From Acidiferrobacter sp. (GTDB lineage Bacteria; Pseudomonadota; Gammaproteobacteria; Acidiferrobacterales; Acidiferrobacteraceae): DNA of 7,530 bases. Of the stretch, positions 240-7,530 are shown piece after piece (within the stretch, counting starts at the first letter, position 1; every line of letters starts with the position of its first letter). The stretch lies in contig DAHWGZ010000076.1 in the NCBI GenBank assembly GCA_027335965.1, forward strand, positions 1 through 7,530, in the 5' to 3' direction. A program made the position numbers and the translations under genes. Below the pieces are notes generated by a model. That model saw nothing but the letters and a program-made list of their open reading frames with translations, searched no databases and had not been told where the DNA came from.

Positions 240-2174
240 TCAATGATGCTTCCGATAGCGCATGTACCAATCGACGAGCAGGCGCACCTGCTTTTCGGTA
301 TAGCCCTTTTCCTGCATGCGCACCACGAAGTCATGATGCTTGCGCTCGTCTTCCGAGCTCCGCTTCTTGCCAAACGAGATCACCGGCAGCAGATCCTCGG
401 TGTTCGCAAACATCTTCTTCTCGATCACCGCCCTCAGCTTCTCGTAGCTCGTCCATGCCGGGCTCTTGCCGCCGTTGTTGGCCTTGGCGCGCAGCACGAA
501 ATTCACCACCTCGTTGCGAAAATCCTTCGGGTTGGCGATCCCCGCGGGCTTCTCGATCTTCTCCAGGTCCTCGTTCAGGAGCGTCCGGTTCATGATCTGA
601 CCGGTGTCGGGATCCCGGAATTCGGTGTCCTGCAGCCAGAAATCCGCATACTGGATGTAACGATCGAACAGGTTCTGTCCGTAGTCGCCGTAGCTCTCGA
701 GATAGGCCTTCTGGATCTCGAGCCCCAGGAACTCGGCGTAACGCGAGGCGAGATCATCCTTCAAGAAGCCGAGGTAACGGGCCTCCGTGTCCGGGGGGAA
801 CTGCTCGGCGCGGACCTGCGTCTCCAGGACATGCAGGAGATGCACGGGATTGGCCGCCACCTCCTCGCTGTCATAGTTGAAGGTCCGTGACAGGATCTTG
901 TAGGCAAAGCGCGTGGACACGCCGTCCATGCCCTCGTCCACCCCCGCCACGTCGCGGTACTCCTGAAGGCTTTTGGCCTGCTGGTCGCGATCCTTCAGGG
1001 TCTTGCCGTCGTAGATCTCCATCTTCGACCACAGGCTGCTGTTGCCCGGGTCCTTCAGGCGGCTCAACACCGAAAACCGCGCCAGCATCTCGAGGGTGTC
1101 GGTGGCGCACGGAGCCTCGCTCAACGCGCTGTTTTCAAGCAGCTTGCGGTAGATGCGCGTCTCTTCGGTCACGCGCAGGCAATAGGGGACCTTGACGATG
1201 AACACCCGATCGAGAAAGGCCTCGTTGCGCTTGTTGTTGCGAAACGCCGCCCACTCCGACTCGTTACTGTGGGCAAGTATGATCCCCTGGTAGGGCATGG
1301 CGCCGAAGCCCTCGGTGCCGTTGTACGTGCCCTCCTGGGTCGCGGTCAAAAGCGGATGGAGCATCTTGATGGGGGCCTTGAACATCTCCACGAACTCGAG
1401 CACCCCCTGCGTGGTGACGTTCAGGCCGCCAGCGTAGGAGTACGCGTCCGGATCATCCTGGGAGAAATCCTCGAGCTTGCGGATATCGACCTTGCCCACG
1501 AGGCTTGCGATATCCTGATTGTTTTCATCGCCCGGCTCGACCTTGGTGATGCCGATCTGGTGCAACTGCGACGGCATGAGGCGCACGACCGAAAACCGGC
1601 GAATGTCGCCGTCGAACTCGCGCAGGCGCTTTGCCGCCCATGGCGACATGACGCCCTGAACGGCGCGACGCGGAATGCCATAGCGCTCCTCCAGGATCGC
1701 GCCGTCCTCCTCGGGGTCGAACAGCCCGAGCGGCGATTCGTAGAGGGGCGAAACGCGGCCGTTGGATGCCAGGCAATAGATGGGGTATTGCTCCATCAGC
1801 GTCTTCAGGCGCTCGGCAAGAGAGGATTTCGCCGCGCCCACCGGACCCAGGAGATAAAGAATCTGCTTGCGTTCCTCGAGACCCTGAGCGGCGTGGCGAA
1901 AATACGCCACGAGGTTCTCCACGACATCCTCGATCCCATAAAAATCTTCGAATGCTGGATAAGTCAGAATCTTCCGGTTCATGAAGATGCGCGCCAAACG
2001 CAGGTCGGACTGGGTGTCGACGACCCGCGGTTCGCCGATCGCCGCCAGCATGCGTTCAGCGGCGGGGGCGTAGGCCAGCGGGTCCTTGGCGCACAGCTTG
2101 AGATACTCATCAAGCGTCATGGTCACTTCCCGCTGTTGCCTGAATCGTTCTTGATACCGGTCAAATAGCGCCAT
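240..2174 (-). CDS. prkA: PrkA serine protein kinase, AAA+ type (YeaG)
   Basis: Encodes 644 residues, the same length as E. coli YeaG, which it matches along its full length. It is a cytoplasmic Ser/Thr protein kinase built on an AAA+ ATPase core (residues about 20-380), followed by the PrkA C-terminal kinase-like domain. Visible conserved blocks include YPAFEDFYG near 72-80, the nucleotide-binding loop GPVGAAKSS at 110-118, GIPRR and MSPWAAKRL, EPGDENNQDI, LVGKVDIRKLE, HPLLTATQEGTYNGTEG, HSNESEW and, near the end, SYEKLRAVIEKKMF. The start at 2174 is chosen because it lines up with YeaG and has a GAGGGGTGG ribosome binding site; an in-frame GTG at 2273 would add 33 unconserved basic residues. 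The P-loop is odd: the family normally has GG or SG before the lysine, and here it is AA. It lies directly upstream of yeaH. In enterics this operon is under starvation and nitrogen-stress sigma factors; no clear promoter is visible here. Confidence 0.96.
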   Translation of the reverse strand: MALFDRYQERFRQQREVTMTLDEYLKLCAKDPLAYAPAAERMLAAIGEPRVVDTQSDLRLARIFMNRKILTYPAFEDFYGIEDVVENLVAYFRHAAQGLEERKQILYLLGPVGAAKSSLAERLKTLMEQYPIYCLASNGRVSPLYESPLGLFDPEEDGAILEERYGIPRRAVQGVMSPWAAKRLREFDGDIRRFSVVRLMPSQLHQIGITKVEPGDENNQDIASLVGKVDIRKLEDFSQDDPDAYSYAGGLNVTTQGVLEFVEMFKAPIKMLHPLLTATQEGTYNGTEGFGAMPYQGIILAHSNESEWAAFRNNKRNEAFLDRVFIVKVPYCLRVTEETRIYRKLLENSALSEAPCATDTLEMLARFSVLSRLKDPGNSSLWSKMEIYDGKTLKDRDQQAKSLQEYRDVAGVDEGMDGVSTRFAYKILSRTFNYDSEEVAANPVHLLHVLETQVRAEQFPPDTEARYLGFLKDDLASRYAEFLGLEIQKAYLESYGDYGQNLFDRYIQYADFWLQDTEFRDPDTGQIMNRTLLNEDLEKIEKPAGIANPKDFRNEVVNFVLRAKANNGGKSPAWTSYEKLRAVIEKKMFANTEDLLPVISFGKKRSSEDERKHHDFVVRMQEKGYTEKQVRLLVDWYMRYRKHH

Positions 2175-2789
2175 AATCCACCCCTCGCCGTCTCTCGTAC
2201 GAATCTTGCGTCCTGCACCACGGCTGCGCGCCGCCTGCCCTTGCGCGGCGCGTCGTGCCGCCGCGATCTTCACCCGTTCACTTTAGGGCCTATGTCTCCT
2301 TGTCTCATCCTCAATACGCCCGACTCATGTCCGATCATCATGCCTAGCGCCCGCGAACACCGCGTCTTGCATTCCTTGTGCATCACCTAAGCGCGCCCTA
2401 CAAGCTTAGACGCGGATTGCGCGAAGTAACGCCCCGCGTGCGCGATTTTCGACAAGCGGTCACACCCGCACGCATCGCCTTCCATCACCGCTCCCACGCC
2501 GCCCGCATGACGGTCTTGCCTGCCCGTTGGATGCGGCCGGGGCATGATTTGTTCCGCGCCCCGAGCGCTTCGCATCGCCCACCGCCGCCGCGCCCTACCC
2601 TGAATGGCAGCAAAGTTCATGCCGTTTCGCGCCCCATGACGACGTCGCCCACAGGCCTCGTCCGCCTACTCTACAGCGGCCACGGCCGCATCACTATCCG
2701 CCGTCGCGTCTCAAGCCATCGCCCGCGTCCCGCGAAAGGCCGCGCTGGCCATGGACGTCCTGCGAGCGAGCGCGCCATTGCGACATCCC

Positions 2790-3037: not shown

Positions 3038-3084
3038 CAAGGATCCTGACTCTCTTGGCTTCCCACCCTCGCAGAGGTCCATGG

Positions 3085-4242
3085 ATGTCGATCGTATCCG
3101 CTCGTCCCTCGTCCGCCGACGCCCCCGCGGAGCCATCGCCGGTCGCGCCCTTGCTGGGCCTGGCCTGGCTGCATTTCCTGAATGACGGCGCCGCGAATTT
3201 CCTGCCCGGCATCCTTCCGGCCATCCTTGTGGGCCTGCATGCGGGGGCGGCATCGGCCTCCGGCATCATGGCCGCGCTCTTGATAGGCCAGGGCTTCCAA
3301 CCGTTCGCCGGTTGGCTCTCGGACCGCCTCGGCGGCAAGAGCCTCGCCATCCTGGGCGTGAGCGGCACGACCCTCGGCCTGGTGCTCGTCGGCCAAAGCC
3401 ACCGCCTGCCGACCCTGCTCGCGGCGCTGGCCTTGATCGGGATGTCCAACGCGCTTTTTCATCCCCAGTCGCTCGCCCTGGCGCGCAGTCTCGCAAAGAC
3501 CCGTCATGGCGCCATCATGTCCGCGTTTCTCGTGGGCGGCGAGCTCGGCCGTGGGCTTTACCCGCTGGTCGCGAGCCTCGCGGTCGCGCACTTCACCACC
3601 TCCGGTCTGTGGATCGTGGCGCTGCCGGCACTCGTGAGCATACCCCTCATAGCGCCCCTGCTCCCACGGCTCGCGCCGCGCGCCGCTCATGCCGCGCCGG
3701 TACAGTGGCGGCGTCACGCGAGGCCGGCCGCCATCCTGATCGCCTACGCCTCACTGCGCTCCTTCGGCCTCTACGCGCTGGTCACCTTTCTGCCCATCGC
3801 CTGGGTGCATGGCGGCGGTTCACTCGTGACCGGCGCCTCGCTGATCACCGTCTTGCTGGTCGTGGGGGTCATAGGCAATGTGAGCGGCGGGCTGATCGCC
3901 GACCGCTTGGGCCGCCGCATCGTGCTCGTCGGATCGAGCGTGTCGAGCGCCGCGCTCGTGGCCGCCTATCTCATGAGCTCCGGGTGGGCCGTATGGCTGA
4001 TCCTGGGCCTCTTGGGGATAGCCGTATTTAGCGCGCTCCCGGTCTCGGTCCTCGTCGGCCAGGACATCTTTCCGGAAAATCGCAGCCTGGGCTCAGGCAT
4101 CGCGCTGGGCCTTGGGAACAGTCTTGGCGCGGTGCTCCTGCTTGGCTTTGGGGTCGCCACATCGGCGTTCGGCGTCCACACCGCCCTTTGGATACTGCCG
4201 CCCGCGGCGCTGGCCTGCGCCTTTCTGGCCGCCCGCCTCTAA
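3085..4242 (+). CDS. MFS transporter, fosmidomycin-resistance (Fsr)-like
   Basis: A 385-residue inner-membrane protein with the hydrophobic pattern of a 12-helix major facilitator. The start at 3085 has AGAGG 7 bases upstream; an in-frame TTG at 3055 lacks such a site. The first helix carries LHFLND (residues 29-34), matching SHLLND of E. coli Fsr. The loop after helix 2 has the MFS motif GWLSDRLGG (76-84). FHPQSLALARSL (125-136) followed by RHGAIMSAFLVGGELG (140-155) matches the Fsr block FHPESSRVARM...RHGLAQSIFQVGGNFG. A hydrophilic central loop spans about 195-213, and the second half repeats the MFS motif as GGLIADRLGRR (268-278). Fsr exports fosmidomycin in E. coli by proton antiport; the natural substrate here is unknown. 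It stands alone, divergent from prkA and convergent with the SMC/Toprim operon. The subfamily is likely; the drug is not proven. Confidence 0.88.
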   Translation: MSIVSARPSSADAPAEPSPVAPLLGLAWLHFLNDGAANFLPGILPAILVGLHAGAASASGIMAALLIGQGFQPFAGWLSDRLGGKSLAILGVSGTTLGLVLVGQSHRLPTLLAALALIGMSNALFHPQSLALARSLAKTRHGAIMSAFLVGGELGRGLYPLVASLAVAHFTTSGLWIVALPALVSIPLIAPLLPRLAPRAAHAAPVQWRRHARPAAILIAYASLRSFGLYALVTFLPIAWVHGGGSLVTGASLITVLLVVGVIGNVSGGLIADRLGRRIVLVGSSVSSAALVAAYLMSSGWAVWLILGLLGIAVFSALPVSVLVGQDIFPENRSLGSGIALGLGNSLGAVLLLGFGVATSAFGVHTALWILPPAALACAFLAARL

Positions 4243-4339: not shown

Positions 4340-4550
4340 CCTGGCATCCACGCAGGCGCCAACCCCCTTGCCGCGCGCGGGAAAGTCGCGGATCAGACGC
4401 TCACGGCGGCGCCCAAAGCCGACGCGATGAGCGCTCCCGCATTGGTGACAGGCGCGCGGCCCATCCTGAACGGGGACGGAGACACGGTCATCGGGGCTGA
4501 TCGATCCGGGTGACGATGTAGGCGGCCCGGTTGAGGATGTTGCCGGGCAT
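4340..4550 (-). pseudogene. Frameshifted N-terminal remnant of an ISL3-family transposase
   Basis: Translation from the ATG at 4550-4548 gives MPGNILNRAAYIVTRID. Skipping one base (4499) continues it in the next frame as SPDDRVSVPVQDGPRA, then CHQCGSAHRVGFGRRRE, then RLIRDFPARGKGVGACVDAR. This order (ILN..Y.V, a CxxC zinc finger, GFGR, LIRDFP.RGK.V..VDAR) is the layout I know from the N-terminus of ISL3-type transposases, where LIRDLPMHGKRVGIYVDARR is typical. Recognition stops near 4340; the second zinc-finger half, helix-turn-helix and DDE catalytic domain are absent, so the remnant is both frameshifted and truncated. Unless the frameshift is a sequencing error, only a 20-residue peptide ending at 4488 would be made from the ATG. 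The ATG overlaps the stop codon of the Toprim gene (TGATG). I see no insertion-sequence terminal repeat upstream. The assignment rests on remembered family patterns. Confidence 0.6.
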
Positions 4551-5497
4551 CACACCTCTCGCGCCATGGCCTCGATTTCCTGGCCCAGCCGCGGATCCAG
4601 CATGAAAACCTCCTGGAATATCCGCCTCTGGGTCTTTTGCAATTCACTCAAGAGGGGGGAATCAACGCTCTTGCCCCATGACCTCTTTACGGGCCGCCCC
4701 GGTAGATATTCAGCCGCAAACGAGGGCACATACAGATTCAACTTCCTGCCGGTTTCCCTGGCCAGGCTCTCGCCGATCTCCAAGCCATCCGGGTCCAGGT
4801 CCCCGAAATGAAGCCACCGTACCCCCGGAAGACGCTTGATGAGCGCGGCCGCCGCCTCAATATCCGCCCCCGGAGAGTAGATCGCCATCACCCCGTCCGG
4901 CACGGGAAGATCGACGTACGCCCCCAAGTTTTCGCACGTCACCATCTGCTTGGGCCATTCGCCGCTGAAGCCCTTGAAGCGCAACCACATCCGTTCTGGC
5001 ACGGCGCATTCCGTCAGAAGCGCCGCCATTTCCTGAAAGTCGACATCCTCGTCGGCAAACGTGCCCCGTAAACCCCGATTGGGCCGGAAACGCAAGACCC
5101 AATCCCTGGTGAGGGTTGCCGTCGGCGCGAGTTGCGGCTCGTGCTTGGGGCCCACGCCGGCCGCCGCGTTCCAGTTGCGGCGATTGAGCATGCCCTTCAC
5201 GGGTTTTTGTCTTTTGAAGGCCGGGAGGGCCTCAATCGCGCTGGGATCATAGGGGTCACGCTCGATCGAGCGCAGGAACCGGAAGTCCTCGCGCCACGTG
5301 GGCGCAATCTCATCGAGGCGCGCTTCCAGGCTCGACGTGGCGCCACTGCGCGCGCGCCACTCATTCTTGCGCCCCGTCGGCTCGATCCACCTCGCCGTTT
5401 CGAAACGGTGGAGCAAGTGCCGGTTACGGCCGACCAGCCTTATCAGGCCGGACTTCAGCAACCTACCAAGCGACGCTATTTCCAGCGCGTCGCTCAT
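4550..5497 (-). CDS. Toprim-domain protein, JetD/MksG-like (DUF2220) nuclease subunit of a Wadjet-type system
   Basis: Encodes 315 residues. The N-terminal third (LGRLLKSGLIRLVGRNRH and following) is basic and may be a winged-helix DNA-binding region. The C-terminal third holds a Toprim fold: VTCENLGAY with the catalytic glutamate at 189, a strand and helix AIYSPGADIEAAAALIKRLP (205-224), then HFGDLDPDGLEI with the metal-binding pair D233 and D235. JetD/DUF2220 proteins show the same order: a VEN motif, a gly-rich turn, a leucine-rich helix, then a GDiDxxG motif. In Wadjet systems this subunit cleaves the small circular DNA trapped by the SMC complex. All three acidic residues are present, so it looks active. 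The start ATG overlaps the stop of the SMC gene (ATGA) and has an AAGGTGG site upstream. By my recollection it is shorter than most JetD proteins (nearer 400 residues). The Toprim call is firm; the exact family is less so. Confidence 0.78.
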   Translation of the reverse strand: MSDALEIASLGRLLKSGLIRLVGRNRHLLHRFETARWIEPTGRKNEWRARSGATSSLEARLDEIAPTWREDFRFLRSIERDPYDPSAIEALPAFKRQKPVKGMLNRRNWNAAAGVGPKHEPQLAPTATLTRDWVLRFRPNRGLRGTFADEDVDFQEMAALLTECAVPERMWLRFKGFSGEWPKQMVTCENLGAYVDLPVPDGVMAIYSPGADIEAAAALIKRLPGVRWLHFGDLDPDGLEIGESLARETGRKLNLYVPSFAAEYLPGRPVKRSWGKSVDSPLLSELQKTQRRIFQEVFMLDPRLGQEIEAMAREV

Positions 5498-7530
5498 GCC
5501 GCCACCTTGATGCCGCGAATGATCAGGCGCTCGTGGGGATCGTAAACGCGACTGAGGGCATAAAGAATGCAGCTGTAACTGGGCGTCAGCTCGGGAGCCG
5601 CGACGATCACCTGGAAGCCTTCGCGTTTGGCGAAATCGACGAGCACGGCATGGCCGGCCGCATCGAGACGATGGGCCTCATCGACGGCAAACAAGGGGTA
5701 TATCTGGTCCACCTTGATTTCCCCTCGCGCGGCGATAGACCGAGTCAGCATCAACGCCAGCGCCAGCCCGCTCCCGATCGATTCCCCGCCGGATAAGGAT
5801 ACCGCAGGCGCCCATCCGGACCCTTTTCGGCAAGCCTCGATGGAAAGATCCACATAATTGCGGTAATCCAGCAATTCCTCGCCGTTCAGGGCAATCCCCT
5901 CGTCCTTGCCGGCCGCGGCGTCGAACCACTCCTTCAAAGCCGCGTCCACCGGCTTTTTCTCGGAAAAGAGCTGTTCCGCGAATCCCTCAAGGATGGAAAG
6001 CATGGCGTCTCTTGGAGACAAAACGATCCTGATTCCGGTCACGTTGCCGAACTTGATGCTCTCGCCCAGCCGGCTCAGCTTGTCGATTTTCCGTTTCTGC
6101 AAGGCGGCCTGGGCGCCGACCGTTTGATGAAGGTTGCGCGCCCTTATCCTGACATCGTTCTCATGACCCACGAGCTTGCCGCCGAGTTCCGCGCGGCGCC
6201 GCTTCATCGCCTCGATCATGTCATCGCCGTCCACTTCGGCGCGATCGATGCTGACACGCTCCCGAACGATCTCCATGAGGATGGGCCAAATGCTCAAGGT
6301 GGACAGCCGATCTCTCGGATCCATGTTCTCAAGGATGAGCAAGCGGCCTGGTAACTCATCCGGGAGCGCCGCGCCAAGAGACGCGATCCGCTTGGTTTGC
6401 TCGACGAGGAGCTTTGTCTCATCGCAGCGCTCGAGGCCTTCGGCGACCGCAAACATGGGCTCGGAATAGCCGCCGAGAATGATCTTGGCGGACGCTTCCT
6501 CTTGCTCGATGACGGCAAGCGCATTGTCATTGGCGGTGATTTTCTCACCCAACCTCTCCATGTCCCCGCTCAGCTTTTCCAGTTTCTGCTGCTTTGTGGC
6601 GCGATTGGCTCGCAGCGTCTCCAGCTGTTTTTCGTACGGTATGGCGATCTCTTGAATCTCGCTCTCGATCCTACGGTGGGCGCCCTCCGCATCGGCCATC
6701 TCGCCTTCAAGGGCCCTCAACGCCTCCTTCGCATCGATTACGGCTTGGTCGATCTCAGTCGCATGATCGCGCTCGGCGAGGTAATAGTTGATCTTCTCCG
6801 CATGCGTTGCCAACGAAGTCTTGCGCTCATCAAACTTGTCGGCCTTCAGGCCCCATTCCCCGCGCCTTTTTTCAAGCTCAACGATTTCCAGCAGGATCGC
6901 GTTTCGGCGCGCGGCGCGCGCGGCGCGCCCGAACACGGGCGTTCGCCCCTTCTTGGTGGCCACGCAGCCCCCGGCGACGAATTCGACGAGCCAATCCCCC
7001 ACCTCGCGCGGCGCGGCGGGTTTCGGCGCGTTGGCGCCCAACCAGAACGTGTCAGGTAGATCATCCGAGCCCTCAAGCCCCGCCAGCTCATCTGGTCCCA
7101 TCCCAACGACGCCATCGGTCAGCCCGCAAAGGGACGCCTCGATTGCCAGTGCCTCTTTTTCGGAAACCGCATCGAGCGCATCCTCCAAGGTCTGCGCGCC
7201 CGTCCTTTCGGCCAGTTTTTCCGAGAGGGCCGACGCCATGCCGCTTTTCAGCCGATTGCCTTGCTCCTGAAGACGCTCCATCTCGGACCGCACCTTGAAA
7301 GCCTCCTGCTCGGCTGCCCGTCTCCCGGCATCCAGCCAATCGCGAACCCATTCGATGGTCCGGTCGGCATGCTCGCCGGCAAGGGCCTGCCAATGGCTCC
7401 CGCCTTGGTCGAAGGCCTTCTTTTTCTCTTGGGCGGTGGCGACCGAAGTCTTCGATGTGGCCCATGCGCTCGTCAGCGCCGTGATGCGGGCGCTTGCCTC
7501 CTTTAACTGATGCAGGGCCACGTTCAGCAC
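5494..7530 (-). CDS. MukB-like SMC ATPase (JetC-type), hinge and C-terminal half
   Basis: The frame is open through the right edge, so the N-terminal Walker A head and first coiled-coil arm lie outside; 678 residues are visible. Residues 1-105 are coiled coil, about 105-205 a hinge ending in PVFGRAARAARRNAI (MukB has PLFGRAARESRIESL), and about 215-545 mostly coiled coil with a break near 378-400. Then comes the C-terminal head: IKFGNVTGIRI (MukB VSFGQVNSVRL), GEELLDYRNY at 550-559 (identical in MukB), the ABC signature LSGGES at 579-584, Walker B LFAVDEAHRLD with D617 and E618, and VIVAAPEL (MukB LIIAAPEN). It is an ATP-driven DNA loop-extruding motor. Housekeeping MukB is encoded with mukF and mukE; here the next gene is a Toprim nuclease, as in Wadjet/MksBEFG plasmid-defence systems. 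The arm after the hinge is much shorter than in E. coli MukB. The catalytic residues seen are intact. Confidence 0.88.
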   Translation of the reverse strand: MLNVALHQLKEASARITALTSAWATSKTSVATAQEKKKAFDQGGSHWQALAGEHADRTIEWVRDWLDAGRRAAEQEAFKVRSEMERLQEQGNRLKSGMASALSEKLAERTGAQTLEDALDAVSEKEALAIEASLCGLTDGVVGMGPDELAGLEGSDDLPDTFWLGANAPKPAAPREVGDWLVEFVAGGCVATKKGRTPVFGRAARAARRNAILLEIVELEKRRGEWGLKADKFDERKTSLATHAEKINYYLAERDHATEIDQAVIDAKEALRALEGEMADAEGAHRRIESEIQEIAIPYEKQLETLRANRATKQQKLEKLSGDMERLGEKITANDNALAVIEQEEASAKIILGGYSEPMFAVAEGLERCDETKLLVEQTKRIASLGAALPDELPGRLLILENMDPRDRLSTLSIWPILMEIVRERVSIDRAEVDGDDMIEAMKRRRAELGGKLVGHENDVRIRARNLHQTVGAQAALQKRKIDKLSRLGESIKFGNVTGIRIVLSPRDAMLSILEGFAEQLFSEKKPVDAALKEWFDAAAGKDEGIALNGEELLDYRNYVDLSIEACRKGSGWAPAVSLSGGESIGSGLALALMLTRSIAARGEIKVDQIYPLFAVDEAHRLDAAGHAVLVDFAKREGFQVIVAAPELTPSYSCILYALSRVYDPHERLIIRGIKVAA

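Follow-up and report, generated by a model that had tools for sequence, protein, structure and literature searches.

The 7,530-nucleotide stretch of Acidiferrobacter sp. DNA analyzed here (contig DAHWGZ010000076.1; hereafter, the window) ends in two minus-strand genes, one for an SMC protein in the clade of MukB, the chromosome-folding protein of E. coli, and one for a JetD-like Toprim nuclease. They are very probably the end of an operon of mukF-like, mukE-like, short-armed mukB-like, and jetD genes, which, by analogy with characterized systems, would encode a Wadjet-like plasmid-cutting machine on the MukBEF branch. That the complex is a variant MukBEF with a JetD is well supported; that it cuts plasmids is likely, judging from its better-studied relatives. 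A preliminary description of the sequence had proposed that chromosomal MukBEF and Wadjet may be linked by a branch that is less described, and this proposal gains support from the kleisin and KITE genes found in relatives, the kinship of the SMC with MukB, and its placement outside JetC.

An SMC of the MukB clade overlapping a jetD gene

Both genes lie where they had originally been placed, with the SMC gene at 7530..5494 and the JetD-like gene at 5497..4550 of the minus strand and a shared ATGA (5494-5497), a 4-base overlap. The SMC gene (5494..7530, minus strand), open at its 5′ end at the window edge, was delineated by its open reading frame (ORF), Pfam, NCBIfam, a PDB search, hhalign, and comparison with a database protein of 1002 amino acids (aa; P0121) in which the window part recurs with 100% identity. 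The window thus covers the hinge, the second arm, and the C-terminal half of the ATPase head (678 of 1002 residues), and the remaining 324 N-terminal residues lie outside it. A MukB-type hinge domain (PF16330, MukB_hinge; 6865..7296, minus strand) covers residues 79–222 of the fragment with 30.1 bits; P0121 scored 83.8 bits with the Pfam model of the MukB N-terminal domain and, against a cut-off of 27, 28.6 bits with that of the hinge. Together with 273 bits to the NCBIfam MukB model and 29.3 bits to JetD_C in the neighboring protein (Pfam; cut-off 22), the matches of the SMC and JetD are far beyond chance. The scores nonetheless fall short of the NCBIfam equivalog cut-offs of the canonical complex: 273 of 699 bits for MukB, at most 153 of 407 for MukF, and at most 59 of 250 for MukE.

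The preliminary description had listed MukB hallmarks in the SMC, and all of them are present (minus-strand coordinates throughout). FGRAAR at the hinge end (6916..6933) and the GEELLDYRNY block of the C-terminal head (5854..5883) recur unchanged in E. coli MukB, whose sequence reads DEAARLDA where the window has DEAHRLDA (Walker B/D-loop; 5659..5682, P0121 position 941) and IIAAPE where it has IVAAPE. As marks of kinship, however, they are of unequal value: DYRNY and FG..A[RK] each also occur in 7 of 33 JetC-set proteins (the 33 include L110, which is unlikely to be a JetC), and therefore neither alone proves MukB kinship. From its distribution, the pattern DE[AVI].RLD is the better marker, with 16/16 family members, 21/21 canonical MukB, and one of two long-armed MukB carrying it, compared with 0/33 JetC and 0/4 MksB. 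The motif named earlier for JetC and MksB (DVR.WFDF type) turned out to be unsafe as a discriminator from MukB when motifs were counted across the protein sets. The LSGGE ABC signature (5782..5796; P0121 position 903) is invariant in 28 aligned members.

Placement of the SMC outside known JetC types

Profile–profile comparison with hhalign aligned the SMC family end to end with MukB (score 461 over 995 columns), compared with 112 to MksB and 156, 67, 53, 46, and 26.5 to five JetC groups. When the family profile was run against PDB sequences, the matches listed were MukB chains only, with no JetC. On P0121, the PADLOC JetC1 model gave 24.6 bits, as against 734–1818 bits for four real JetC of a sample of genomes from one class, and the JetC3 model 15.8 bits, for a type with no protein in that sample. 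In the tree of SMC heads, MukB, long-armed, and short-armed proteins (the last being the type of the window) formed one clade with a bootstrap of 100. The approximately unbiased (AU) test on the head alignment yielded p values of 0.24 for short with long, 0.48 for short with MukB, 0.09 for short with JetC, and 0.22 for short with MksB; it rejects no alternative grouping, while the trees are consistent with a descent of MukBEF from a JetD-bearing machine. Unlike the AU test, bootstrap proportions by resampling of estimated log-likelihoods (bp-RELL) and expected likelihood weights (c-ELW) exclude the grouping of short with JetC. Membership in a known JetC type, which would have made this an ordinary Wadjet locus, is thus contradicted by PADLOC, tree, and hhalign alike, with the AU test not decisive and JetC3 unsampled.

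The JetC, MksB, and JetD references were taken from the sampled genomes, the four MksB references being chosen by MksE score and not from a named MksB record. Dropped from the trees were jetC_L110 (frame opposite to the strand of its JetD), jetC_L103 and jetC_L108 (JetC2-like, no Walker A by pattern; compared apart), jetD_L091 (wrong frame), and the SMC of L006 (broken frame); the JetD proteins of L089, L109, and L110 were unused, as were L085, L094, L102, and L111, in which no clear JetC was seen. An AlphaFold model of the whole SMC was moderate (predicted local distance difference test, pLDDT, 73.7; predicted template modelling score, pTM, 0.42), and its fold matches serve as support only.

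The JetD-like protein has an intact Toprim core

The second gene (4550..5497, minus strand) encodes a complete MukB-type JetD (MksG-like) Toprim protein of 315 aa, identified from its ORF, the JetD_C domain, 131 homologs, and AlphaFold and Foldseek results; the database protein P0001 is identical to it. The Toprim core proposed at the outset held up: the catalytic E189 (4931..4933) and the D233-x-D235 motif (4793..4801; both minus strand) are invariant in 69/69 aligned proteins, which were drawn from the 120 matches listed of the 131 homologs. The AlphaFold model (pLDDT 92.3) retrieved C. glutamicum MksG as the top Foldseek match, followed by P. aeruginosa JetD and Top6A; with VIA-align, Top6A and MksG rank level.

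A tree of 79 JetD proteins places the MukB-type JetDs in one clade (support 99), separate from classical JetD. Within it, the short type (100), the long type (96), and a gammaproteobacterial set (98) are distinct, and the tree gives no firm order among them. Profile scores agree, with 277 for short against long and 240 for short against the gammaproteobacterial set, compared with at most 67 against classical groups. Queried with the window JetD, a plasmid collection gave matches only in Burkholderia pyrrocinia and in a 4.9 Mb Aeromonas caviae record; a search of phages with the long-type JetD, rather than that of the window, as query gave no match, and a viral_contigs scan with the window SMC gave no relative. 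Three records listed as plasmids in PLSDB (NZ_AP026896.1, NZ_CP134663.1, and NZ_OL790811.1; 4 to 5 Mb) carry canonical mukB and have the look of whole chromosomes.

Kleisin and KITE genes precede the SMC gene in relatives

One scan of genome contigs uncovered six related loci (L001–L006), all metagenome-assembled, with hosts assigned to Rhodocyclaceae, Betaproteobacteria, Nitrosomonadales, Sideroxydans, Gallionella, and Methyloglobulus. In 6/6 loci, a kleisin-sized gene (438–472 aa), a KITE-sized gene, the SMC gene, and jetD follow one another in that order on one strand (the KITE frame of L002 was only coarsely called). The kleisin and KITE genes whose presence upstream had been raised as a check were accordingly found in the relatives: all six kleisins are MukF-like and carry the MukF_M domain (Pfam), and the KITE lies between kleisin and SMC. 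The KITEs of L001, L003, L004, and L006, the four scanned, matched Pfam MksE with 74–84 bits and MukE with 37–57 bits. In L006, the SMC frame (5076-8080) is broken, while those of the kleisin, the KITE, and JetD are intact.

For the window itself, the longest of the five contigs in a MukE-like KITE cluster (P0168) measures 12,892 bases, as does the contig bearing P0001, which suggests that the window operon has a KITE gene too. Canonical Smc was above its curated cut-off in 6/6 genomes of the relatives (in one, split over two contigs), each of which has a single gene matching PF04310. With a canonical Smc and only one PF04310 gene in each of these genomes, the MukB–JetD complex is therefore an accessory one. 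Of the 369 genomes in the class sample, three gave a strong PF04310 match, at 79 bits for the short type (G001, on which the draw was centered), 194 bits for the long type (G317), and 373 bits for the canonical type (G258); all other matches were at 30 bits or below. WYL regulators adjoin two of seven loci (L006 and L072).

The Pfam scan of the window covered four frames, the SMC, JetD, a PrkA serine kinase gene (240-2273, minus strand), and a major facilitator superfamily (MFS) transporter gene (3055-4242, plus strand).

Long-armed MukB–JetD operons

The same four-gene arrangement exists with a long-armed SMC. On the Burkholderia pyrrocinia plasmid pBPJTT, genes for a kleisin and for proteins annotated as MukE, MukB (1473 aa), and DUF2220 are consecutive and lie near SAVED- and WYL-domain genes, and genome G317 harbors the same operon with an SMC of 1472 aa, plus a canonical Smc. 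The kleisins of both have the MukF winged-helix, middle, and C-terminal domains, their KITEs match MukE with 112–113 bits, and their JetDs match JetD_C. These operons thus resemble the short type in gene content, gene order, and a JetD of the same clade, but differ in their SMC of 1472–1473 aa, which groups with canonical MukB (support 96).

MukB-type JetD in genomes with canonical MukB

MukB-type JetD also occurs in genomes with canonical MukB. In the gammaproteobacterial order of G258, 26 of 394 genomes hold 38 copies at E < 1e-70 with a profile of the JetD clade (A4), the next matches being at 30 bits or below; weaker JetD-like matches of 19–30 bits were excluded from the count of 26. Profile A4 includes some of the sampled copies, but an earlier profile made without any from the sampled genomes (A3) recovers the same 26 at E 9.1e-20 or better. 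Each of the 26 has exactly one PF04310 match (397–425 bits); PF04310 was over its cut-off in 13 of 40 sampled genomes of the order. This co-occurrence reflects two or a few lineages, not 26 independent events. A canonical Smc is also present in 21 of the 26 (in one, split over two contigs); these genomes resemble an Aeromonas caviae record, and we call them Aeromonas-like from that likeness. In the other five (G385, G409, G429, G449, and G679), no Smc at E 1e-100 was seen among the 16 best candidates scored per genome.

One class of copies, aerA, has 13 members, 12 in these genomes and one in A. caviae KAM479. Ten of them are encoded 2.4 to ~10 kb downstream of canonical mukB and on its strand, one ~26 kb upstream, and two on other contigs (distances in G734, G551, and G650 derived from coordinates). 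The E/D/D residues are intact in 13/13, and the median ratio of nonsynonymous to synonymous substitution rates (dN/dS) was 0.22 in eight copies, with dS near saturation. Examples that follow canonical mukB on its strand at a distance of a few kilobases are seen in L113 (19865-20890; A. caviae KAM479), L146, L147, L149, L150, and L152–L154, with Smc also present in the genomes of the L146 to L154 examples. A second class, aerB, was defined by score (70–96 bits with A3) and contributes one copy to each of the 21 Aeromonas-like genomes. In ten aligned copies, E189 is changed to D or N in 10/10, D233 is replaced in 8/10, and D235 in 2/10; with these catalytic residues replaced, the aerB copies are therefore probably inactive. 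Their median dN/dS was 0.17 (eight copies). In the one aerB locus read (L161, 10543-11520; kin L162–L170), porin and aminotransferase genes flank the copy.

The genomes in which no Smc was found differ in arrangement. In G449, jetD starts 3 bases after mukB and has lost E189 and D235 (L160, 7639-8592), and MukB is the sole SMC found of the kinds searched. In G385, G409, and G429, JetD has intact residues and no mukB adjoins it. On one side of jetD, G409 and G385 have the neighbors seen in G449, namely genes for a 255-aa protein, a histidine-kinase-type protein of 229 aa, and a LysR-type protein, with domains assigned from the G449 genes. From these common neighbors we therefore infer that mukFEB and jetD were once adjacent and were later separated in G385 and G409; alternatively, mukFEB may have moved to jetD in G449. 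In G679, a further copy is encoded on a short contig, behind a truncated SMC-like frame. At L156 (3147-7067), an 8.1 kb contig of a genome with canonical MukB as well bears a kleisin-like and a truncated SMC-like frame together with a MukB-type JetD.

No JetD was seen beside 18 further canonical mukB loci within a downstream reach of 3.3–5.9 kb in 17 of them and 0.4 kb in one, a weak check, as this reach is below most jetD–mukB distances and 5 of the 18 came from genomes with a JetD elsewhere. The whole-genome count of 26/394 is the better measure.

Comparison with known systems

The complex shares with MukBEF the end-to-end SMC profile match, the gene order F-E-B, and the Pfam domains MukB N-terminal, MukB hinge, MukF middle, and MukE, which were above cut-off in the full-length SMC, 6/6 kleisins, and 4/4 KITEs scanned. 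It differs in that a jetD follows in all six loci and in its SMC of 1002 aa, as compared with 1486 aa, with the shortening mostly in the arms; moreover, with Smc in 6/6 hosts, it is not a stand-in for Smc. With Wadjet JetABCD types I–III (including EptABCD and MksBEFG with its nuclease), it has in common the single operon for kleisin, KITE, SMC, and Toprim JetD (6/6 relatives) and a JetD that keeps E, D, and D and, in the model, the predicted MksG/JetD fold. In contrast to Wadjet, the SMC, kleisin, and KITE are on the Muk side, the KITE has no JetB-like N-terminal tail, and JetD forms its own clade and has 315 aa rather than the 357–488 aa of 30 classical JetD frames (starts unrefined). The likeness to MksBEF extends to the KITE of L001, which matches Pfam MksE better than MukE (74 vs 37 bits), but not to the SMC profile, which scores far lower to MksB than to MukB.

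In passages of PMC7617805, a tree of the Wadjet group is presented and MukBEF is stated to be without MksG/JetD; the size filters given there would admit the MukB–JetD family. Searches of the open-licence literature, judged mostly from titles and abstracts, listed no paper on a MukB–JetD operon or on a JetD near canonical mukB, although Data S1 and Figure S1A of PMC7617805 may contain members.

For Wadjet and MksBEFG, excerpts of PMC10586767 and PMC10123090 describe an SMC motor that acts on circular DNA and a JetD/MksG that cuts it. By analogy, the SMC–kleisin–KITE motor of the MukB–JetD complex would load on DNA, and its MukB-type motor would extrude loops with ATP and so measure circles. 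Small closed circles may drive it into a stalled state that licenses cutting by JetD, and the cell would thereby reject plasmids.

Alternative explanations

Several observations weigh against a plasmid-cutting machine of this kind. The window shows only two of the four operon genes, SMC and JetD, the upstream ones lying past its edge. PADLOC found no JetA or JetB among four kleisins and four KITEs, with only a weak JetC2 match for two of the kleisins. Surroundings typical of defense are patchy: as read from chosen flanking frames, defense-type enzymes adjoin only three of seven loci (L001, L004, and L072), whereas L003 has housekeeping neighbors, L002 lies near genes of transposase and Rhs-like types, an EAL protein and a Rep-type helicase are encoded next to L005, L006 has only its WYL regulator, and the window pair has the PrkA and MFS transporter genes. 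In type I Wadjet, an IFDR motif in the N-terminal tail of JetB contacts JetD, according to a portion of PMC10586767; no such IFDR-bearing tail was seen in five short-type KITEs, the motif not having been looked for in the sampled JetB either, and the docking of JetD must therefore differ from that in type I Wadjet.

An ordinary Wadjet of type I, II, or III whose JetC happens to resemble MukB would share the four-gene layout and the JetD partner, and the AU test leaves room for joining the SMC to JetC or MksB. We consider it highly improbable in view of the wide gaps in PADLOC JetC1 and hhalign scores (461 for MukB vs at most 156 for JetC), PDB matches devoid of JetC, the full bootstrap support for MukB with long and short, and the exclusion of short with JetC by bp-RELL and c-ELW. 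Improbable, too, if less so, is a service to the chromosome in segregation or decatenation, with JetD as a topoisomerase-type helper, instead of plasmid defense: the hosts already have Smc, some neighbors are of defense type, and the short type is rare, with 1 of 369 class-sample genomes, itself the center of the draw.

A more serious contender, though in our view still rather unlikely, is that a MukBEF complex gained its JetD secondarily from Wadjet, making the nuclease acquired rather than ancestral. The AU test keeps a short-plus-long clade beside canonical MukB, where one gain would be possible, and most MukB genomes seem to be without such a JetD (26/394 of the order with JetD; MukB in 13/40 sampled). 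Against a secondary gain, the partner JetDs form a clade of their own that includes no classical JetD of the tree, and a JetD of the same clade lies behind or near canonical mukB, which calls for a gain before canonical MukBEF arose or for several gains from one source.

Tentatively, and with some reserve, we propose instead that MukBEF arose from a machine that bore a JetD and cut DNA: the ancestor of short, long, and canonical MukB would have had a JetD that was mostly lost in the canonical line. Chromosomal MukBEF may still work with a JetD encoded nearby or in trans in Aeromonas-like bacteria and in some gammaproteobacteria without Smc, and part of this JetD would by now be a probably inactive, conserved accessory factor.

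Implications

A descent of MukBEF from Wadjet is offered as speculation in a section of PMC10586767. A MukB clade with JetD, together with MukB-type JetD in MukBEF genomes, makes this speculation testable: can a MukB motor measure and cut plasmids, and does chromosomal MukBEF keep a nuclease partner in some bacteria? Excerpts of PMC12647877 note that channel-less hinges tend to go with long arms, and a short-armed SMC with a MukB-type hinge could test this tendency, if its hinge is channel-less. Defense catalogs such as PADLOC would miss the MukB–JetD system. Chromosome folding and plasmid cutting, then, look like close kin.

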